From: a virus
Virus record (IMG/VR): IMGVR_UViG_3300042090_002485
Coordinates: 123,863-187,862 of that record
Strand: one strand, 5' to 3'
DNA length: 64,000 bases
Part shown: positions 15,611-61,576 of the stretch, piece by piece
How positions within the stretch are numbered: position 1 is the first letter of the stretch
Layout: every line of letters starts with the position of its first letter
The notes under the pieces: model-generated
Seen by the model: only the letters and a program-made list of their open reading frames with translations
What the model was told of the DNA's origin: nothing
The model's database searches: none
Made by a program: the position numbers and the translations under genes

Positions 15611-15825
15611 CGATGCTCGAGGTGCTGCCGATCATCTTCGGCGACAAAATCGCGCACCGAGCACTTCGCAACAACACGACGCCCCACGACACACGAGTTT
15701 GGATTCCGTGTGCAGGCTGGCGTATCCCGCACGGGTACCAACGGCTTGCCGCTGGTACGCCGGTCACGTGCGTGCTGTGCCTGGCAGCTGACGAGCGCGG
15801 AGCATTACGACGAGAGGGACCATGA
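15607..15825 (+). CDS. VTC-module protein, 72 aa
   Basis: DKIAHRAL gives His17, IPCAGWR gives Cys35 and PVTCVLCLA gives Cys55 and Cys58. Last member of array 1; it overlaps the M20 amidohydrolase start by 4 bases. Confidence 0.8.
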   Translation: MTMLEVLPIIFGDKIAHRALRNNTTPHDTRVWIPCAGWRIPHGYQRLAAGTPVTCVLCLAADERGALRREGP

Positions 15826-17078
15826 TCTTCAACGACAGCGACAGAGTGAACGCCCAGCGCATCTTCGAAAACATCGCGGCGCGCACCGCCGATCCCCAAG
15901 GCGGCATTGACCGCGCGTCCTATGGGCGCGGCGAGACGCGTGCGCTCGCGGAACTGTTGATGGAAGCGAACAAGCTCGGCGTCTACGCCGGCACCGACCA
16001 CGCTGACAACCTGGTGATGTCGCTCGAGCAGTCGCTCGCAGTGACGCGCGACAAGGTCACCGTGATCGGGTCGCACCTCGACTCGGTGCCGCGCGGCGGG
16101 AACTACGACGGCCTCGCTGGCGTCGTCGCGGCGTTGCTCATCCTCGGCAAGGCGCGCGAGCGCGGCGTGACGAAGCCGCTCCGCGGCGTCGGCCTGCGCG
16201 GCGAGGAGTCAGCATGGTTCGGCGTGCCGCACCTAGGCGCCAAGGCGATGCTTGGCAAGCTCAGCCTGGCGGACCTCGCGCTGATCCGCCGTGGAGACCC
16301 CGAAGCAACGCTGGCGCGCTGCATGGGTTCGTGTGGCGCCGAGATCGGCAAGGTCGAGAGCGGCTATCGCTCGTTCGAGCCGGCGTCGATCGAGGAGTAC
16401 TGGGAGCTGCACATCGAACAGGGCCCGGTACTGGCGGAGCGTCAGATTCCGGTTGGCATCGTCACCAACATCCGCGGCCACGCCCGCACGACGACGGCGC
16501 GGGTCATCGGCGAAGCCGCGCACTCTGGTACGACGCCGATGGGGAACCGCAAGGACGCGGTGCGCCGGTTCTGTGCGCTCGTAACGATGCTTGCGCAAAC
16601 ACGCAAGCGCATGGCCGTTCGTGATGTCGACATCGTCTTCACTATCGGTACGGTCAACACCGACCCAGCCCGGCATTCGGTGACGACCGTCGCTGATGAA
16701 GTGAAGTTCTCGCTGGACGTACGCAGCGTTGACCCGACGGTTCCTCAGCTCTTCCTCGAACAAGCGAAAGAGCATGGGATGGACACGGACGGCGAAGCGT
16801 GGCTCGATCTAGGATCGGTGCGCTACACCGCGCCGATCTCGCTGAGTCGGCGCCTGATGACGCGCGCGTCGATGGCAGCGCACAGCCTAGGCATTGTTCC
16901 GATGGAACTACCCAGTGGCGCCGGTCACGATGCAGGCGTGTTTGCCGACGCCGGCGTGCCGACTGGCATGATCTTCGTGCGCAACTACCACGGATCGCAC
17001 AACCCGCAGGAAGAAATGCACATGGATGACTTCATGCGCGGCCTGGAAGTGCTGTGGGCTACGGTAATAGGTTCGTAG
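15822..17078 (+). CDS. M20-family amidohydrolase (N-carbamoyl amino acid hydrolase / allantoate amidohydrolase type)
   Basis: 418 aa, full length. SHLDSVPRGGNYDG (His85, Asp87, Asp96), GEES (Glu128, Glu129), ELHIEQGPVL (His197), AAHSGTTPMGNRKDA (His234), PSGAGHDAG (His379) and GSHNPQEEM (His393) are the signatures of the hydantoinase/carbamoylase branch, which uses two metal ions to cleave C-N bonds in carbamoyl amino acids, allantoate or ureido compounds. All key residues are present. It is translationally coupled to VTC-module genes on both sides. Such an enzyme is rare in phages and may be acquired from a host. Confidence 0.9.
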   Translation: MIFNDSDRVNAQRIFENIAARTADPQGGIDRASYGRGETRALAELLMEANKLGVYAGTDHADNLVMSLEQSLAVTRDKVTVIGSHLDSVPRGGNYDGLAGVVAALLILGKARERGVTKPLRGVGLRGEESAWFGVPHLGAKAMLGKLSLADLALIRRGDPEATLARCMGSCGAEIGKVESGYRSFEPASIEEYWELHIEQGPVLAERQIPVGIVTNIRGHARTTTARVIGEAAHSGTTPMGNRKDAVRRFCALVTMLAQTRKRMAVRDVDIVFTIGTVNTDPARHSVTTVADEVKFSLDVRSVDPTVPQLFLEQAKEHGMDTDGEAWLDLGSVRYTAPISLSRRLMTRASMAAHSLGIVPMELPSGAGHDAGVFADAGVPTGMIFVRNYHGSHNPQEEMHMDDFMRGLEVLWATVIGS

Positions 17079-29317: not shown

Positions 29318-31843
29318 TCACGTACGAGGTTTCGCCGTACCTGTAACCATACCGCCAGGACGGACAGCGCCCGTGACCGTATCGGCTTCCAGGGCACGTG
29401 CTGTTCCAGCCACGCTAGTTTTTTGCGTTGACCCCGTAACTGTCTCGGGTTGTGCCAGAACTGCAGTTCCCGCAACCGCAGCGGAACGCACCGCGGCGGC
29501 AATCACCGTCGCAGGTACATCAGGCGCAACGACGTAGCCCATCTGCGCCGTGACCGTGCCTTGGTGCGTGTGCACCTCGTTGACCTGGTCGCTCGGTGCC
29601 CGCAGCGCCTCGGCGACCGCACGGGCGCCGACGAATACCCGCGCCACGGCGTCGGTGATGGTCGGCAGCGTCTCCGTTGGCGCGCGGAAGAACGCAGCCA
29701 CGCCCGCAACGGCGTCGGACAAGGTCGGCAGCGTCTCGACAATGGCGCGACGCGCTGCGGTCACTCGAGCGATGGCGTCGGTCGGCCTGGGCAGCGCCTC
29801 GGCAAGCGCGCGGGCGCCGATGAACGTGCGCGCGATGGCGTCGGACGGCGCGGGCAGTGTCTCAGCGACCGCGCGCGAAAATGCAGCAACAGCCGCAACC
29901 GCGTCGGTCAGCGTCGGCAGCGTTTCTGTCAGCGCTCGAACCACGCTCCCCGTGCTCGAAACGGCGTCGGACAGCGACGGCAGTGCCTCGGCGATCGCTC
30001 GAGCACCAACGAACGCTCGCGCGATGGCGTCGGTCGGCTTGGGCAACGCCTCGGCGATTGCCCGCGGGAACGTCGCAACAGCTGTGACGGCGTCGGTGAC
30101 GGTTGGCAGAGTCTCGGCGATTGCCCGCGGGAACCTCGCGACCATCGCAACCGCGTCGCTCGGTGTTGGCAGGGTCTCCGTGATCGTGCGCGCGCCGACG
30201 AACACCCGCGCGACGGAGTCGGTGAGCGTCGGCAGCGTCTCGGCAACCGCGCGGGTGTAAGCTACGGCGCGCGCGAGCGCGTCGGTCACTGTTGGCAGTG
30301 TTTCTGCGAGGTTGCGCGTCCCGACGAAGACCCGTGCGACGGCGTCGGTGACAGTCGGCAAGGTCTCCGCGACCGCGCGCGAACCGACGAACACCCGCGC
30401 GACGGCGTCGGTGAGCGTCGGCAACGTCTCGCCGATGCTGCGCGTGAAGCTCCCCGAAGACGATTCGCTCACGCTGTCGAATATGGTCGGCAGGGTTTCG
30501 GCGATCGCGCGCGCGCCAACGAACATGCGGGCCACCGCATCAGTGGGCGTCGGCAGCGTCTCTGCAATGGCGCGTGCGAGGACTTGCTGGATGGCAACGG
30601 CGTCCGTCGGGGTCGGCAACGTCTCGGCCACGGCACGATCAAACGCGGCGATCCGCGCAACCGCATCGGCGAGCGTCGGCAGCGTTTCGCTGATCGCTCG
30701 AGTCAGGGCTTGCTGCGCGGCGATCGCGTCGGTGAGCGTCGACAACGTCTCCGCGATCGCCCGTGTGAACACCACAACAGCAACGACAGCGTCGGTGAGC
30801 GTCGGCAGCGTCTCCGAGATCGCACGCGACAATCCTTGCGACGCTGTGACGGCGTCGGTGAGCGTCGGCAGCGTCTCAGCGATCGCTCGAGCACCGGCGA
30901 ACACCCGCGCGACAGCGTCGGTCGGCGTCGGCAGCGTCTCGGCGATCGCTCGAGCGCCCACAAACATGCGGGCGACGGCGTCGGTGACGGTCGGCAGGGT
31001 CTCGCCGATGGTCGCAATGTTCTGCACCGCGCGCGACACGGAGTCGCTGACGGTCGTCAAGGTCTCGCTGATGCCTCGAGTGCCGACGAAAACGCGCGCG
31101 ATGGCGTCGGTCAAGGTCGGCAGGGTCTCAGCAATCGCTCGAGCACCGATGAATTGCCGCGCAACGGCATCGGTCGGCGTTGACAGGGTCTCAGCGAGGG
31201 CTCGTGCGAGGACTTGTTGGGTCGAAACGGCGTCTGTGACCGTCGGCAGGGTCTCCGCGATGGCTCGCGCACCGATAAACTGCCGCGCAACGGCATCGGT
31301 CGGCGTTGACAGGGTCTCAGCGATGGCTCGTGCGAGGACTTGTTGGATCGAAACGGCGTCTGTGACCGTCGGCAGGGTCTCAGCGATGGCTCGGCTGAAG
31401 GACGCCTGCCGAGCGACGGCGTCAGTCGGCGTCGGCAGGGTCTCCGCGATGGCTCGCGCACCGATGAACTGCCGCGCAACGGCGTCGGTCAGCGTCGGCA
31501 GCGTTTCAGCAATCGCTCGGACGCCGATGAACTGCCGCGCAACGGCGTCGGTTGGCGTCGGCAGGGTCTCCGCGAGCGCACGCGCGTAGACCACCTGCCG
31601 CGAAACCGTGTCGGTCAGGGTTGGCAGCGTCTCGGCGATCGCTCGAGCACCGATGAACTGCCGCGCGATGGCGTCGGTTGGCGTCGGTACGGTCTCGGCG
31701 ATCGCGCGCGCCAGGACCTGCTGGATCGCGACCGAATCGGTGAGCGTCGGTAGCGTCTCGGCGATCGACTCGACGTAGTTGTGCGCGCCGCCCGGGATCG
31801 CCGAGATGGGTGCTGAGGAGATTGGTCCAAAGCCAAGGGCCAT
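29318..31843 (-). CDS. Repetitive phage fibre-like protein, 21-residue repeats
   Basis: 841 aa. From about residue 27 to 745 it is built of more than thirty 21-residue units of the form AIAETLPTxTDAVARxFxGAR. A non-repetitive C-terminal about 95 residues (VTAQMGYVVAPDVPATVIAA) follows. Regular Thr/Pro and Ala periodicity suggests a fibrous shaft; neighbours are virion genes. DNA-level repeats of 63 bases could let the shaft change length by recombination. Confidence 0.75.
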   Translation of the reverse strand: MALGFGPISSAPISAIPGGAHNYVESIAETLPTLTDSVAIQQVLARAIAETVPTPTDAIARQFIGARAIAETLPTLTDTVSRQVVYARALAETLPTPTDAVARQFIGVRAIAETLPTLTDAVARQFIGARAIAETLPTPTDAVARQASFSRAIAETLPTVTDAVSIQQVLARAIAETLSTPTDAVARQFIGARAIAETLPTVTDAVSTQQVLARALAETLSTPTDAVARQFIGARAIAETLPTLTDAIARVFVGTRGISETLTTVSDSVSRAVQNIATIGETLPTVTDAVARMFVGARAIAETLPTPTDAVARVFAGARAIAETLPTLTDAVTASQGLSRAISETLPTLTDAVVAVVVFTRAIAETLSTLTDAIAAQQALTRAISETLPTLADAVARIAAFDRAVAETLPTPTDAVAIQQVLARAIAETLPTPTDAVARMFVGARAIAETLPTIFDSVSESSSGSFTRSIGETLPTLTDAVARVFVGSRAVAETLPTVTDAVARVFVGTRNLAETLPTVTDALARAVAYTRAVAETLPTLTDSVARVFVGARTITETLPTPSDAVAMVARFPRAIAETLPTVTDAVTAVATFPRAIAEALPKPTDAIARAFVGARAIAEALPSLSDAVSSTGSVVRALTETLPTLTDAVAAVAAFSRAVAETLPAPSDAIARTFIGARALAEALPRPTDAIARVTAARRAIVETLPTLSDAVAGVAAFFRAPTETLPTITDAVARVFVGARAVAEALRAPSDQVNEVHTHQGTVTAQMGYVVAPDVPATVIAAAVRSAAVAGTAVLAQPETVTGSTQKTSVAGTARALEADTVTGAVRPGGMVTGTAKPRT
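29600..31770 (-). repeat. 63-bp tandem repeat tract
   Basis: Over thirty imperfect 63-base units encode the fibre shaft. On the plus strand the recurring core reads close to GGCGTCGGTGAGCGTCGGCA. Neighbouring units near 31140-31400 are nearly identical, indicating recent amplification there. Confidence 0.85.
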
Positions 31844-31846
31844 CGT

Positions 31847-32815
31847 TCACCACCACATCAAGTAGATGAACCCTGGCCCGCCCGGCCCGCCCGCGCCACC
31901 CGTCCCGCCCGACGTGCCGCCGCCGCCGCCACCGCCGCCGCCGCCGCAACCCCACGCGCCTTGCCCGCCTGCGCCAGCAGCACCACTGACCTGCCCGCCG
32001 CCGCCGGTGCCGCCCATGCCCCCGAAGAGCTGTCCGGGAAAGTCAGCGTAGGTCCCCGCGAGCTGCGCGAGCGTGTTGACGTTGAACCCGGGATTACCGT
32101 TGTGCCCGACAGCGCCGCCAGCGATTTGCTGGACCAAGCCAAGCCCTGCCTGGTTGCCGCCGGCACCCGCAGTAGTCGACGAGCTGGCTCCGCCACCGCC
32201 CGTGCCTCCTGTGAAGGGCTGCCCGCCGCCACCCCAGCCGCCGTTGGCCCCTGCGGTACCTGTACTAGCACCACCCGACTTTCCGGTGTCACCGCTGATC
32301 GTGTTGTAGTAGAGCGCCCAGCCCAGATAGACCGGCAGCGGCGCGGTCATGACCCCGTTGGAGCCGCCCGTGCCCGCGGTCGTCGACGATCCACCGCCGC
32401 CGCCCGTGGCCGCTATTCCTGTCCAGAGGATAAGGTCTGCCGATGTTGTTGTGGGACCGTCGGAGAGATAGGACGCGATGCCGCTACTACCGGTCACGCC
32501 CGTGCTGCCCGCTGCGCCGCCGGCGCCGCCCGCGCCTGCGAGATAGTGGATCCGGCGCGGCAGAAAGCGCGTCGGTATACACATCGTCGCGAGACCGCCC
32601 GAGCCCCCACCGCCGCCGCCGCACGCCGCCGTCGCCGCGCCACTTGTAGCACCGCCGCCGCCACCGCCACCACCCGATGCGAGTGCTGCGAACAGCCATG
32701 ACGCGTTGCGCGGAATCACCAACGTCCGCCAGCCCGATGACGTCGCGGTCGCATAGCCTGGAACGAACAGGCTGTTCATTCGGCGCGGGCTGAACTTGTC
32801 GACGATGTCAAACAC
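31847..32815 (-). CDS. Glycine-rich tail-tip protein, copy 3
   Basis: 322 aa from GTG 32815. An N-terminal about 50-residue beta domain (WRTLVIPRNASWLFAALAS) is followed by glycine tracts and ends PGGPGFIYLMWW. Glycine-rich tips of this type in T-even-like adhesins form packed polyglycine helices that bind receptors. Paralogous to the two genes upstream. Confidence 0.75.
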   Translation of the reverse strand: MFDIVDKFSPRRMNSLFVPGYATATSSGWRTLVIPRNASWLFAALASGGGGGGGGATSGAATAACGGGGGGSGGLATMCIPTRFLPRRIHYLAGAGGAGGAAGSTGVTGSSGIASYLSDGPTTTSADLILWTGIAATGGGGGSSTTAGTGGSNGVMTAPLPVYLGWALYYNTISGDTGKSGGASTGTAGANGGWGGGGQPFTGGTGGGGASSSTTAGAGGNQAGLGLVQQIAGGAVGHNGNPGFNVNTLAQLAGTYADFPGQLFGGMGGTGGGGQVSGAAGAGGQGAWGCGGGGGGGGGGTSGGTGGAGGPGGPGFIYLMWW

Positions 32816-32818
32816 CGA

Positions 32819-33790
32819 TCACCACCAACACACGTAGATGAAGCCGGGGCCACCCGCGCCACTCTTGCCACCGGTGCCACCTGAGGTGCCGCCTGCGCCG
32901 CCGCCGCCTGCGCCGCCACAACCAAGCCCGCCTTGACCGCCAGCGCCACCGGTACCCGTCGCAACAGCGGCTCCGCCCGCGCCACCCGTGAAGGCGAACA
33001 GCTCCCATGGCCAATCGCCGATCTGGAGCCCCGCGCTGGCGGGGATGAACACGCCAGAATTGAACCCTTGGCTGCCTGCCTTGTTCACGTTCGAGATCAA
33101 GCCCGCCGCGACAGACGGGACTAGGCCCGCCCCTGTAATCGCCCCGCCACTTCCTTGCGTTGTCGACGTGTTGGTGCCGCCGCCGCCCGCCCCGCCCGAC
33201 ACGATGAGGCCAGCGCCACCCCAGGTCACGCCGGTACCGTTGGTTCCTGACGTCGTGCCGCCGCTCCCGCCTGCCTGGCCCGCGATCGCAGTGAACACAC
33301 CAAGCGTAGAGAACGCCGCGTTATTGCCTGTCGAGACGGTCTCAGCAACACCGGAGGAGCCTGCAGCGGTTCCGCCTCCAGCAGCTGCCGAACCGGAGAC
33401 AAGCACGATGTCGCTCGCGTTCGGACTCGAGGCGGGCTCCGCCGAGATGAACGAGCGAACGCCTGCGCTACCATTCGCACCAGCCGTTGCGGCAACACCA
33501 CCTGCGCCGGGCGAGAAGTACAACTCGCGCGGCAGGAACCGCGCTGGGATGAGAAGCGATGCAGACGCGCCTGACCCGCCCCCGCCGCCGCCGGTAGCTG
33601 CGACACCCGCCCCTTTCGTTTGCCCGCCACCACCGCTGGCACCGCCACCCTGAGTGACCAAGAACACCATGCTGGCGTTGCGGGGGACCAACCACGGTTC
33701 CCAACCCGTGGCGTTGGTGACCATGCCGCCAACGATCCACACCTGCTCGGTGACGCGCGGGTTGAAAGAAGGCTTGGCAGGAAATCCCAT
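32819..33790 (-). CDS. Glycine-rich tail-tip protein, copy 2
   Basis: 323 aa. Shares WxPWLVPRNASM, RFLPRELYFSPGAGG and the terminal GPGFIYVCWW with its two neighbours, with different loops between. Loops between glycine tracts would be the receptor-contacting parts. Confidence 0.75.
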   Translation of the reverse strand: MGFPAKPSFNPRVTEQVWIVGGMVTNATGWEPWLVPRNASMVFLVTQGGGASGGGGQTKGAGVAATGGGGGGSGASASLLIPARFLPRELYFSPGAGGVAATAGANGSAGVRSFISAEPASSPNASDIVLVSGSAAAGGGTAAGSSGVAETVSTGNNAAFSTLGVFTAIAGQAGGSGGTTSGTNGTGVTWGGAGLIVSGGAGGGGTNTSTTQGSGGAITGAGLVPSVAAGLISNVNKAGSQGFNSGVFIPASAGLQIGDWPWELFAFTGGAGGAAVATGTGGAGGQGGLGCGGAGGGGAGGTSGGTGGKSGAGGPGFIYVCWW

Positions 33791-33793
33791 GGG

Positions 33794-34768
33794 TCACCAG
33801 AACCACACGATGACGAATCCAGGGCCACCAGCGCCACCCGCGCCACCCGTCCCGCCCGACGTTCCCCCGCCTCCGCCTCCGCCGCCTCCGCCGCAACCCC
33901 ACGCGCCTTGCCCGCCACGCCCCGCGGTGCCGCTGGCTTTGCCTCCGCCGCCCGAACCGCCACTGAACGCAAAGATCTGATGCGGGAAGTCGCCGTGGAA
34001 GCTGGCCATGTCCATCTGGCAGTTCACGTTGAAGCCGGGGTTACCAGGGCTACCGCCCGCGGCGCCGCCCGCGATGGTGTTGACCAGACCTGCACCGGTG
34101 ATCGCGCCGCCCGCGCCGTTGGTCGTCGACGCGTTGCTACTGCCGCCCCCGGCGCCGCCGGAGAGCGGAGGCAGCGTCGTGCCTGAGCCGCCCCACACCT
34201 CTGCTGTTCCCGTACCACCCGACGTCGAACCTCCCGTGGTTCCTGATTGTCCAACGAGCGCCACCCAGAGGCCGAACTGGGAGAATGCGGTGAGTGCGCG
34301 CGTTGCCGCAGTCTCCGCGGCGCCACCGCTCGCCGAAGACGTGCTGCCCTGCGTGCCGCCCACGGCTGCCGCGGTGCCCGACACCAAAATGAGGTCGCCT
34401 GCGACCGTCGAGCCATTCTCCGCCGATACGAACGAACGCACACCGGCGTTGCCCACCGTTGCAGCGGCCGGCGCCGCGCCACCCGCACCCGCACCGACGT
34501 AGACCGTGCGTGGCAAGAAGCGCGTCGGGATGAGCAGATTTGCCACTGAGCCCGACCCACCGCCTCCAGCGCCCGTTCCGATCGTCGCAGCCGCGCTCGA
34601 TGCTCCGCCGCCGCCGCTTGCGCCGCCGCCGACGCAGAGCCATTGGCTCATCGAGACGTTGCGAGGAATCTCCCACGGGATCCAACCGCCGGCACCGGTA
34701 GCGAACATGCCGGGCCAAACCATCACCCCGCAGTTGCGAGGGTTCGCCGCGGCGAGGGCGCTGAACAC
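33794..34768 (-). CDS. Glycine-rich tail-tip protein, copy 1
   Basis: 324 aa from GTG 34768. WIPWEIPRNVSMSQWLCVGG, RFLPRTVYVGAGAGG and terminal GPGFVIVWFW align with copies 2 and 3. Three such genes in a row, spaced 3 bases apart, suggest alternative or co-assembled receptor-binding tips. Confidence 0.75.
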   Translation of the reverse strand: MFSALAAANPRNCGVMVWPGMFATGAGGWIPWEIPRNVSMSQWLCVGGGASGGGGASSAAATIGTGAGGGGSGSVANLLIPTRFLPRTVYVGAGAGGAAPAAATVGNAGVRSFVSAENGSTVAGDLILVSGTAAAVGGTQGSTSSASGGAAETAATRALTAFSQFGLWVALVGQSGTTGGSTSGGTGTAEVWGGSGTTLPPLSGGAGGGSSNASTTNGAGGAITGAGLVNTIAGGAAGGSPGNPGFNVNCQMDMASFHGDFPHQIFAFSGGSGGGGKASGTAGRGGQGAWGCGGGGGGGGGGTSGGTGGAGGAGGPGFVIVWFW

Positions 34769-35587: not shown

Positions 35588-35601
35588 AGGAATTATAGGG
35601 A
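35588..35601 (-). promoter_or_regulatory. Late-promoter-like motif A
   Basis: On the minus strand TCCCTATAATTCCT, with TATAAT at 35597-35592, 8 bases before GTG 35583. No -35 box is visible. It overlaps the stop codon of the endonuclease gene upstream. Confidence 0.55.
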
Positions 35602-36852
35602 CGGCTGCTGGACGCACCGCGTACAGAGGCCGCCACCCTTGTGCGGCCGCGCGGTCTCACCGCATCGCGTGCAGGCGTCGTACTTCCGCGACCAGCGCCC
35701 CTGGGACGCGAGCGTCGGGTTGCCGCGCAGCTTCGCGGCGGCGGACTTGCGGGCGCGCGTCTCGTCGGAATCTTTCGAGCCAAGGCGCGAGGGCTTCGGT
35801 GCAGCGAGGTTGGCGAGGCTGTTCGGGTGCCGAGCGCGACGACCGTCGACGTAGTCGGGCCCGCGCGCAGCGACTTCGGCGGCGCGCAGCTCCCGCGCGC
35901 GCTCGCGCGAGTAGCAACGCTCGCACTGCCCGTGGCCCTTGTGCGGCGAGTCGGTCTGCCCGCACTCGACGCAGTGCGCATGCTCGAGCGACCAGACGCC
36001 CATGGCTTCGCACGAGGTGGACTGGATCGGCGCGCGGCGGCCTTCGGCGTAGGCGCGCTTGAGGCCCTCGGAGATGGCAGTACGTTGTTCGTCGGGGAGG
36101 GGAGCGCCGCGGCGGGCGTCGGCGGAGGCGGCGATGGCACGGGCGTGGACTTCGGGCCCCCAGCCCTTCTTGAGGTTCTCGATGTTGCCTTCGCTGCCCT
36201 GCTTCGCTTCGCTGATCTTGCGCGCGTGCTCAACGTGCTGTTCGTCGGTCCAAGCGTCGTAGGTCGCTTGGATGGCGGCGGTGCGCCGAGCAAGCTCGTC
36301 GGGCGGGACAACACGGCCGAGGGCGTACTGATTACCGCGCATGCGCAGCGACTGGGCGGCGATCCACTCTGGCGGGCGTCGATACCCGAGTGCGTGCTTG
36401 TTCCCGCGCATGCGCTCGGCCGCGGCGACCTTCCACTCGTCGGAGTGGACCGTCCCCGCAGCGTGCTTGTTCCCGCGCATGCGCTCGGCGGCCGCAGCCT
36501 TCCACTCGTCAGTGTGCTTGTGGCCTCGTGCGGCCTGATTCCCGAACGAGAATCCGTCGCCTCCCGCGGTGAGGTTCGTGAGGGGCCAGTCTTCGCGATG
36601 ACCAAGTGCGATCCAGCGGATCTCGGCATCGTTCAACAAATCAGGATCGTCGACGACCTCGAGGATACGAATCTGAGGCGTACAACCCTCAGCGCGAAGT
36701 TGCTTGAGCCAGCGTGCCCGGTACGTATCATCGAGTGCGAGTCGTGATGGCTGCGCGTGTTGCGCGGGACGAATGAGTCCGCGACTCGACTTACCGATGT
36801 ACCGAACCTCCTCGGTACGTGGGTCAACCAGTGCGTAGATCAGATGCTTCAT
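35593..36852 (-). CDS. GIY-YIG homing-type endonuclease with NUMOD-like repeats
   Basis: 419 aa. LIYALVDPRTEEVRYIGKSS (residues 4-23) is the GIY-YIG core, followed by NLTAGGDG. Repeats of AAAERMRGNKHA type (about 100-180) resemble NUMOD3 DNA-binding motifs. Two zinc-knuckle-like elements, CVECGQTDSPHKGHGQCERC and CTRCGETARPHKGGGLCTRC, close the protein. It sits between two virion genes and leaves the downstream promoter intact, as expected for a mobile endonuclease. Confidence 0.85.
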   Translation of the reverse strand: MKHLIYALVDPRTEEVRYIGKSSRGLIRPAQHAQPSRLALDDTYRARWLKQLRAEGCTPQIRILEVVDDPDLLNDAEIRWIALGHREDWPLTNLTAGGDGFSFGNQAARGHKHTDEWKAAAAERMRGNKHAAGTVHSDEWKVAAAERMRGNKHALGYRRPPEWIAAQSLRMRGNQYALGRVVPPDELARRTAAIQATYDAWTDEQHVEHARKISEAKQGSEGNIENLKKGWGPEVHARAIAASADARRGAPLPDEQRTAISEGLKRAYAEGRRAPIQSTSCEAMGVWSLEHAHCVECGQTDSPHKGHGQCERCYSRERARELRAAEVAARGPDYVDGRRARHPNSLANLAAPKPSRLGSKDSDETRARKSAAAKLRGNPTLASQGRWSRKYDACTRCGETARPHKGGGLCTRCVQQPSL

Positions 36853-41126: not shown

Positions 41127-41135
41127 GGAGGATCA

Positions 41136-41164
41136 TCTTAAAACACCGTAGTGGCACCTGACAA
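41136..41164 (-). promoter_or_regulatory. Promoter of the Myb-like gene
   Basis: Minus strand TTGTCA (41164-41159), 17-base spacer, TTAAGA (41141-41136). The start codon is 9 bases further on and no ribosome site is visible, so the mRNA leader would be very short. Confidence 0.45.
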
Positions 41165-41246
41165 GTGACAGCTTGACTCTAAAACGTAGCCTTAGATACG
41201 TTAGTGTAACTGTTCAAAAACAAAAACAAAATGACATGAAGATCTC

Positions 41247-41281
41247 GGGAATCACAAGGGATGAGCTTACCTTAGAAATTC
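41247..41281 (+). repeat. 35-bp inverted repeat, left arm
   Basis: GGGAATCACAAGGGATGAGC followed by TTACCTTAGAAATTC. It matches the complement of 41396-41430 at 30 of 35 positions; all five differences are transitions. Confidence 0.75.
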
Positions 41282-41344
41282 ACCTTTGCATTTTTCGCGA
41301 TCGTAAAAACCTGCAGAATCTGCAGCCCGTTTTGCCCCATTCAG

Positions 41345-41370
41345 ACATTCAACTACATGTGGTTGAATGT
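41345..41370. promoter_or_regulatory. 26-bp near-perfect palindrome (operator-like)
   Basis: Half sites ACATTCAACTACA and TGTGGTTGAATGT; the second reads ACATTCAACCACA on the other strand, one mismatch in 13. Size and symmetry suit a dimeric repressor or initiator. It lies between the 35-base arms. Confidence 0.65.
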
Positions 41371-41395
41371 ACGTCCTCACTCTCCCCCTACACGC

Positions 41396-41430
41396 GAATT
41401 TCTAAGGTGAGTCCATCCCTCGCGATTCCC
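41396..41430 (-). repeat. 35-bp inverted repeat, right arm
   Basis: Complement reads GGGAATCGCGAGGGATGGAC then TCACCTTAGAAATTC. Pairs with 41247-41281 across about 115 bases. Confidence 0.75.
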
Positions 41431-41580
41431 GCAAAGAAAAGCGTCCCTCCCCCGACCCCCTCCTAGAAGAAGAACCATAGATCTCTGGATATAGTATAGG
41501 TAGGAGGAGGAGGGGAGCGGGGGCCGCGGCGGGTTCTCTGATGCAAAGATCGGCCGTCACGCAGCAGGAGCGAATTTCGT

Positions 41581-42144
41581 ATGGAGACAAGACCTCGACT
41601 TGGGCGTCATCCGAACTACGTGTCGGGTCTCGCACCGACACCCGATGCGCTGAAGCCCTACATCGACTGTGAGCTGGTGCATGGGCACTGGTTCTTCTTG
41701 GATCGGAAGCCGACGCGCCGTCATGACGCGACCGGTCAAGCCATGATCCGCGTGCGGCAGTTCCCCCTCGACGCGGGCGTGTTCAACGTCGCCCGCGTGC
41801 TCCTCGAGCACCGCCACGGCGAGCTGCCGCCCCGCACGGCCGTCTACTCCACGTGCGGGCTACCGCAGTGCATCAACCCCGACCACTGGGCGTTCGCGTG
41901 GCCCGCGCCGCGCTATCGCCTCGATGCCGTCCCCGTCGCCGACGGCAGTGTATGGCGGCTAGTCGTGCAGAAGACTGGCGCGGTCCTCGATCGCGCCGCC
42001 GCCGTGCTGCTCGAGATCGACGGCGTCGTCCACCGCGTCGACGCGCTGCCCGAGCGCCCGCTCGCCGCCGCCTGTGGCACCGTGGTCGACCCGCTTCATG
42101 CTTCCGTGGTCACGCGCGCAGTCTCTTGCCAGGGGTGTCGCTGA
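41581..42144 (+). CDS. HNH-like zinc-loop protein with degenerate VTC module
   Basis: 187 aa. The N-terminal about 105 residues end in STCGLPQCINPDHWAF, the C-x4-C-[IV]-N-P-x-H-[WL] loop typical of HNH-type phage endonucleases (Cys92, Cys97, His102). The C-terminal part has IDGVVHRV with His151, AACGT with Cys165 and AVSCQGCR with Cys183 and Cys186, a VTC-like module without the TCV letters. Confidence 0.65.
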   Translation: METRPRLGRHPNYVSGLAPTPDALKPYIDCELVHGHWFFLDRKPTRRHDATGQAMIRVRQFPLDAGVFNVARVLLEHRHGELPPRTAVYSTCGLPQCINPDHWAFAWPAPRYRLDAVPVADGSVWRLVVQKTGAVLDRAAAVLLEIDGVVHRVDALPERPLAAACGTVVDPLHASVVTRAVSCQGCR

Positions 42145-42725
42145 TGGGGGTCCTGGCGCGCCACCACGGCCATGGTGGGAAGTTGTTGCCGCCGCGCAAC
42201 CTCGTCGAGCCTCTCATCGATCGCGGCCCTCACGTCGGCGAGCACTGGTACTGGCTCGGCGAGTTCGATGGCGGGCCGTTCGAGTCGCAGGCCGAGATTC
42301 GCTGGCAGCCGCCGCGTGAGAAGTTTGCGCGGAGCTTTTGCGTCACACGTTTGTTGTGGGGATGGGACCGTGCCTCGGGCATGGGCATGATCGACGTCAA
42401 GCGGCTGACGCTCCGCAACACGTGCGGCGTGCCTGCGTGCGTCAACCCCACGCACTGGGAGGCTCGTCAACGCAAGGACGTCGCGCCTGCCGGACCGCTC
42501 CGTTCGCAGTTGCCTTTGGACAGCGGCGCGTACGTCTCGTGCTTCTCGGGGTCGCGTTACAGCCGCGACGCGACGCTCACGCACATCGCGCGCGAGGAGT
42601 CCACGCACTCGGTGTGCGGCCGCGCCAAGCAGGTGACGGCGCCACGTGCGACGGTCATCGTGACGTGCGTCGAGTGCCAGAAGACGTGGCTCGCGCTCGG
42701 CAAGACGCTGGAGCCGGCGCTGTGA
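42144..42725 (+). CDS. HNH-like zinc-loop protein fused to VTC module
   Basis: 193 aa, TGATG-coupled to the previous gene and its paralog. NTCGVPACVNPTHWEA gives Cys94, Cys99 and His104 of an HNH-type loop. The C-terminus has LTHIA with His147, SVCGR with Cys158 and VIVTCVECQ with Cys175 and Cys178. The first HNH histidine is not obvious, so nuclease activity is uncertain. Confidence 0.7.
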   Translation: MGVLARHHGHGGKLLPPRNLVEPLIDRGPHVGEHWYWLGEFDGGPFESQAEIRWQPPREKFARSFCVTRLLWGWDRASGMGMIDVKRLTLRNTCGVPACVNPTHWEARQRKDVAPAGPLRSQLPLDSGAYVSCFSGSRYSRDATLTHIAREESTHSVCGRAKQVTAPRATVIVTCVECQKTWLALGKTLEPAL

Positions 42726-60784: not shown

Positions 60785-60802
60785 CCCTATAATCTTAGGG
60801 TG
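60785..60802 (+). promoter_or_regulatory. Late-promoter-like motif D within a palindrome
   Basis: ACCCTA-TAATCT-TAGGGT is a perfect inverted repeat (60784-60801) and contains TATAAT (60788-60793), 6 bases before GTG 60800. It lies between divergent starts (60782 minus, 60800 plus). Confidence 0.5.
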
Positions 60803-61576
60803 ATGGCTGTATCTCTCGCGCAAGCGCTTGCGAACGTCCTCGCGGCGCGCGAGAAGGCCGCGGAGATACACGCGAATCCGCGAACGTTCTTCGTTCACGT
60901 GCGTGTGCCTGAGCACGTCGCAGAAGACCTCCGCGCGGTCCAGAAACGCGTCATTCCTGACCCTGCGAAGCACGTCGACGTGGACCACGTGACCCTCGTG
61001 TACACGCGCAAACCCTCCACGGATCACGAACCTGAGAAGGTCCACCACGCGCTGGAGGCCTTGCGTGAGATCGGTGCACGCACCGAGCCCGTCGACGCGA
61101 AGATTCAGGGCTGGGGCTACTTCGATGGCGCGCAGAACGATGGCAAGACGTCGACGGCGTTGGTCGCGTTGGTCGACGCGCCTGGCCTCGAGCACCTCCA
61201 CGTCGATATGTCACGGGCGTTGTCCGCGATCGGCATCGAGCCCTCCGACCTGCACGTCTTCACGCCGCACATTACGCTCGGCTACCTCGGTCACCACGGC
61301 CGCGTCGGCGAGCTGCCTCCGATCGGCGGCAAGTTCACCATCGACCGCGCGCACGTCGCCGCGCGCGACCACCACGAGATCCCGCTGACTGGGCAGGGCG
61401 CAGGCGAGATCGGGCGCAAGGCCGCACGCGACGCCGCGCCGTTTACGATGGACGCCGCCGCGCTGCGCCGTGAGTTGCCCAACCCGCCAGGGCGCGGCGA
61501 AATGTCGGCCGCGGGCGGCTCGGGGAGCGGCGCTGCACCGCCGCAGCAGGGCTCGCCACGAGAGAGTTTCACCTGA
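60800..61576 (+). CDS. 2H phosphoesterase-like protein, 258 aa
   Basis: HVDVDHVTLVYTRKP and HVFTPHITLGYLGHHG carry the two H-x-T motifs of the 2H (LigT-type) superfamily, about 100 residues apart. A Gly/Pro-rich tail of about 70 residues follows. Relatives hydrolyse cyclic or 2'-5' phosphodiesters; phage Acb1 uses this fold against CBASS signals, but other phages carry it within virion proteins. GTG 60800 fits the promoter; ATG 60803 is also possible. Confidence 0.75.
   Translation: MMAVSLAQALANVLAAREKAAEIHANPRTFFVHVRVPEHVAEDLRAVQKRVIPDPAKHVDVDHVTLVYTRKPSTDHEPEKVHHALEALREIGARTEPVDAKIQGWGYFDGAQNDGKTSTALVALVDAPGLEHLHVDMSRALSAIGIEPSDLHVFTPHITLGYLGHHGRVGELPPIGGKFTIDRAHVAARDHHEIPLTGQGAGEIGRKAARDAAPFTMDAAALRRELPNPPGRGEMSAAGGSGSGAAPPQQGSPRESFT

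Follow-up and report, generated by a model that had tools for sequence, protein, structure and literature searches.

A divergent intergenic region with origin-like anatomy, conserved in place and usually in symmetry among uncultured tailed phages

The intergenic region that separates a Myb/SANT-like gene from a pair of HNH-like genes in this phage is a landmark that related phages conserve, built in the manner of a viral origin set within a divergent promoter region. Between phages the sequences of its arms turn over, while its position and symmetry persist. Our reading is that the region combines a bidirectional origin of replication with a divergent promoter/operator, and we put its probability at about one half; the origin function is deduced from composition and anatomy, which lend it moderate, indirect support. 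To our knowledge, origins are poorly mapped in large tailed phages that carry their own RNA polymerase. A rapidly evolving dyad, the A/T minimum and a skew minimum come together at this locus with a linked gene for a DNA-binding-type protein, and the combination makes it a concrete origin candidate. The phage group is frequent in metagenomes, and the site is a case in which form outlasts sequence. A preliminary description had proposed a control region or origin between divergent transcription units; in outline this is supported, since the divergent landmark is conserved and sits where the genome is richest in A/T.

The window (the whole stretch of DNA analysed, 64 kb) is the last part of a linear record of 187,862 bases. 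Its own contig is called G000 below, and G001–G022 are related IMG/VR records. The contig carries tailed phage genes (DNA polymerase, primase, helicase, ribonucleotide reductase, RNA polymerase) and two sigma-like genes. The order of its capsid, portal and polymerase genes resembles that of Salmonella phage Arash at 25–44% protein identity, and the uncultured group, with its own RNA polymerase, is distantly related to Arash. When the major capsid protein was used as query against IMG/VR, at least 80 related loci were recovered. The RNA polymerase beta-like protein (1804 aa, C1:54348-59762, equal to L006:14348-19762, minus strand) is longer than that of Arash, and a segment of it (residues 776–887) matches phrog_85, a thymidylate synthase family, and may be an insert, for instance an intein. 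Elsewhere in the window, a protein encoded at 15822–17078 (+) looks, by eye only, like an M20-type amidohydrolase/carbamoylase, an unusual phage cargo, and one at 60800–61576 (+) has two H-x-T motifs (HVTLVYT, HITLGYL) that suggest a 2H phosphoesterase, again by eye only. The 841-aa product of 29318–31843 (-) is a repeat protein whose unit is about 20 residues long (AIAETLPTLTDAV...); the related contigs L014, L015, L016, L018 and L019 encode comparable ones. Three tandem glycine-rich, tail-fibre-like paralogues of about 320 aa are encoded at 31847–34768 (-), and a homing-endonuclease-like gene (phrog_314; 35593–36852, -) sits within the tail module.

A repeat search of the region, which is placed between divergently oriented genes, identified an inverted repeat with 36-nt arms, 86% complementary and separated by 114 nt (Table 1). 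This is the same repeat that had been given before as 35-base arms matching at 30 of 35 positions. All five differences between the arms are transitions. When the 454-nt region was shuffled 300 times with dinucleotides preserved, the arm match never exceeded 23/36, against 31 observed, and the palindrome score never exceeded 11/13 (one shuffle), against 12 observed. Among all 36-nt inverted pairs in the contig this dyad is the best, the runner-up reaching 28/36. The 26-base palindrome and the CTGCAG pair of the preliminary description were both located. The many further copies that, by its own account, would have refuted it did not turn up: no other copy of either arm was found in the contig with up to 12 mismatches allowed, and the next best match to the palindrome has 9 mismatches. 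The local A/T enrichment was likewise borne out: G+C is 0.439 for 41127–41440 with a contig median near 0.65, and the region overlaps the lowest 300-bp G+C window of the 188-kb contig, which starts at C1:164963 (window 41101) and has a G+C of 0.433. No strict DnaA box was found. The CCTACAC element of the spacer also occurs in the spacers of two relatives, its orientation unchanged.

Table 1. Features of the divergent region and its flanking genes (window coordinates)
Feature	Position	Strand	Remarks
Divergent intergenic control/origin-like region	41127–41580		contig's lowest G+C overlaps its left part
Dyad left arm	41246–41281		CGGGAATCACAAGGGATGAGCTTACCTTAGAAATTC; outward reading gives the right-arm motif; single copy in contig
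Dyad right arm	41396–41431		GAATTTCTAAGGTGAGTCCATCCCTCGCGATTCCCG; 31/36 against left arm
Asymmetric spacer between arms	41282–41395		contains CCTACAC at 41387–41393
Small hairpin CTGCAG-AAT-CTGCAG	41311–41325		between the arms
26-bp palindrome	41345–41370		ACATTCAACTACATGTGGTTGAATGT; 24/26 (12/13 per arm); CAACYAC half sites face each other
Conserved right block	41444–41535	+	CCTCCCCCGACCCCCTCC..AACCATAGATCTCTGGATATAGTATAGGTAGGAGG..GGCCGCGGCGG; counterpart in G002, G006; promoter/leader-like
Candidate sigma-70-type promoter TTGTCA-18-TAAGAT	41135–41164	-	consensus match only; ends just before GTG of Myb-like gene
Myb/SANT-like protein, 361 aa	40041–41126	-	first gene of leftward unit; same-place homologues in three further lineages
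Small protein, 71 aa	39829–40044	-	overlaps end of Myb-like gene; no Pfam match
HNH-like zinc protein 1	41581–42144	+	first gene of rightward unit; same-place homologue in G001/G002, G004, G006
HNH-like zinc protein 2	42144–42725	+	tandem paralogue of HNH-like zinc protein 1

The gene context is as had been described, with a Myb/SANT-like gene on one side and HNH-like genes on the other. The Myb-like protein matches PF00249 at E 1.8e-4 and 22 bits, under the Pfam curated cut-off of 24.4 bits, and a PDB fold search with structure models of it returned nothing significant; hence we name it only 'Myb/SANT-like'. Its structure prediction is weak overall, with a C-terminal three-helix segment at a pLDDT of about 82, and a search for its homologues in bacterial genomes found none. 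The two HNH-like proteins match the profile phrog_1872 'endonuclease' at 1.5e-9 and 6.7e-5. The candidate leftward promoter has a leaderless-type spacing to the Myb-like gene and is the single sigma-70-like match on that side (0.3 expected; consensus match only), the rightward side having none. Two matches to the late motif occur in the region, both weak. That motif, CCTAYMATT, is likely the promoter motif upstream of the late genes of G000 and often stands 2–30 nt from the start codon (for example C1:16307(-), 16400(+), 32454(-), 40441(-) and 163614(-)), a leaderless-type spacing; this fits a phage that brings an RNA polymerase and sigma factors of its own.

Homologues of the Myb-like protein (31–36% identity) are encoded in G001, G002, G004 and G006, each time opposite an HNH-like homologue and across an A/T-rich gap. 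The gap is identical in G001 and G002, and three positions of the compared stretch distinguish G006 from L136, so that we count four independent lineages of this short-Myb type. In a set of 21 related records, such HNH-like homologues occurred only where a Myb-like gene was present too. A divergent A/T-rich gap is also found, at an equivalent spacing from the capsid gene, in G009, G010 and G011 (that of G012 being a near copy of the G010 gap), where it adjoins a gene for a 746–934-aa protein with a W-P-ED Myb-type segment; homology between the short and long proteins outside the Myb segment was not supported. With the contigs taken as circularly permuted, the locus lies on one side of the major capsid gene, 55–71 kb from it, in 7/7 lineages. 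It holds the whole-contig G+C minimum in G000, G004, G006, G009 and G010; in G011, of which 34 kb were examined, it has the lowest G+C of that stretch. The best inverted repeat of the contig coincides with that minimum in G000 and G006, and with the second-lowest G+C window in G001, while in G004 no long repeat accompanies the minimum at the locus. The more distant relatives G013, G014, G016 and G019 gave no Myb homologue and G015 a weak one only, and no clear equivalent region was seen in G013, G015, G016 or G019. In G014 the best inverted repeat (27/36; L157:502-707, equal to C1:100502-100707) lies near the corresponding capsid-gene distance, in a 650-nt gap between same-strand genes and without a Myb-like gene; we excluded it from the lineage counts. 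Repeats at 115.8 kb in G009 and 72.8 kb in G010 were discarded, their positions being away from the locus. Matches to the arms in IMG/VR comprised only an identical 12-kb contig and two chance matches. Record 3300014169_000345, the other contig whose Myb gene is closest to that of G000, was not counted as an independent copy, being 100% identical and adding nothing new, and the DNA-pattern matches L020/L021 were rejected as a 20-base chance match within unrelated coding sequence.

A long dyad is present in the gap in 5/7 lineages (G000, G001, G006, G009, G011), and no significant one was found in G004 or G010. The 36-nt arms match at 31/36 positions in G000, 32/36 in G001 and 27/36 in G006, with the dyad centre 212.5, 202.0 and 227.5 nt from the Myb gene, respectively; the corresponding distances are 393.0 nt in G009 and 399.0 nt in G011. 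In G011 four mirror segments have a common centre at 398–399 and together span about 600 nt, and in G009 three share a centre at 393. Local scoring of these centres gave z-scores of 7.8 (G011), 6.1 (G001), 4.4 (G009) and 4.1 (G006), the next best being about 3. Ranked by centre at a radius of 120, G001 and G006 came first over their whole contigs; at a radius of 300, G011 came first in the 34 kb examined. G009 did not rank first. G000 is exceptional for its 36-nt arms only. The arm sequences themselves are hardly shared: left arms of different phages aligned no better than shuffles, and right arms aligned beyond shuffles only in G002 versus G006, at a shifted register. The right block is conserved in each of the three pairs of phages (p<1/300). 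Conservation of the spacer is weak (p up to 0.017), and its elements keep a single orientation across the three phages. The word ACCTACAC is present in 5/7 regions, and no 8-mer was that frequent in 60 shuffles; together with the right block it provides leads in finding the protein or polymerase by which the region is read.

The preliminary description had also called for a cumulative GC-skew analysis. Plain cumulative GC skew was unusable because it is confounded by gene direction, and we therefore measured skew at third positions, corrected for gene strand, in six genomes (G000, G001, G004, G006, G009, G010). The keto skew minimum fell 2.9 kb from the locus in G000, 3.1 kb in G004, 0.9 kb in G009 and 1.4 kb in G010, with maxima 64–89 kb away. 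Combined by distance over all six genomes (Fisher), this gave a p of about 4e-4, which is optimistic since several skew measures, six variants in all, were tried. GC3, the first strand-corrected measure tried, gave a Fisher value near 0.003, with minima at 0.9 kb (G009), 4.8 kb (G010), 4.0 kb (G004) and 10.6 kb (G000) and a significant skew range. Neither keto nor GC3 skew marks the locus in G001, whose range is not significant, or in G006; T-A skew minima lie 3.0 and 6.7 kb from it in these two. In four of the six, the corrected skews favour an origin, with a minimum near the site and a far maximum, but in G001 and G006 they do not, and a skew trace left by divergent gene direction may partly survive simple strand correction. 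Also counted against an origin are the failure to find a strict DnaA box, the missing long dyads of G004 and G010, the more distant relatives described above, and the 50–95 kb that separate the locus from the primase, polymerase and helicase genes.

If the region is an origin, the mirror-image sites, which we propose to be the dyad arms and the inner palindrome, would flank an A/T-rich, easily melted core and be bound by a protein that recognizes their sequence; the simplest candidate is the one encoded by the neighbouring Myb/SANT-like gene. Binding would open the core and allow forks to assemble in both directions, and the bound protein would also control both outward transcription units. 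Origin and operator functions are mutually compatible. The main rival is a plain divergent promoter/operator without origin function, in which both arms, pointing outward, would be copies of a single regulator site (or promoter module) through which the Myb-like unit and the early-type genes to the right are regulated together. Each arm is indeed directed outward at its flanking gene, the consensus promoter match stands at the start of the Myb gene, a promoter/leader-like block adjoins the rightward gene, and a DNA-binding-type protein comes first in its unit. By itself, however, such an operator leaves unexplained both the skew minima near the locus with their far maxima and the exact register of the several G011 mirror segments over about 600 nt, and no regulon is visible; we consider it quite possible though not probable. 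The 'master operator' of the preliminary description is possible; a genome-wide operator or promoter family is ruled out, as the arms are absent elsewhere in the contig.

The dyad could also matter through the folding of one strand's RNA, a leader transcript then forming a long hairpin or a structured RNA, and its symmetry is retained despite sequence change. Folding beats shuffles on both strands (z -4.1 and -5.5), as any inverted repeat would, but the region matched no Rfam 15 covariance model at gathering score and the mismatches within the five dyads, read on the plus strand, include 47 G-T and 58 A-C pairs. The absence of a G-U preference on either strand favours a role at the DNA level, and we think an RNA role unlikely. 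About equally improbable is a neutral scar of recurrent inverted duplications without function: template-switch-like events can produce exact register and the arms are unrelated between phages, yet five lineages repeat the dyad at a constant location, comparably spaced from the Myb gene and always at an A/T minimum. The recombination site suggested earlier, such as an invertible DNA switch, found least favour. Although inverted repeats bracket a 114-bp segment near tail genes, no protein of the tyrosine or serine recombinase families (PF00589, PF00239) was matched on the contig, which is possibly incomplete, the spacer elements are same-oriented in three phages, and a second, identical contig has the segment in unchanged orientation; we regard this as very improbable. 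To return to the replication origin, the bolder proposal of a new phage-origin type, in which symmetry and place are conserved rather than sequence and lineage-private arms co-evolve with a Myb/SANT-like initiator encoded alongside, seems to us doubtful for now.

Long palindromes are found in insect and nematode mitochondrial control regions, where PMC1762429 discusses them together with replication; as replicon and proteins differ, this is an analogy only. Salmonella phage Arash (OQ632216.1) has capsid, portal, RNA polymerase and sigma genes in common with G000, whereas no Myb-like or HNH-like counterpart was found in it, nor any inverted repeat reaching 28/36. The rightward proteins share with phrog_1872 endonuclease and HNH-like proteins a cysteine/histidine pattern and a weak profile match, but have no Pfam HNH match. 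Dyad-type viral origins between divergent genes are known in oriL and oriS of herpes simplex virus and in the SV40 ori. Although there is no sequence relation to these, the phage arms vary between phages, and both initiator and origin are putative here, the phage region is like them in its A/T-rich core, its inverted flanking sites and its location at divergent promoters.
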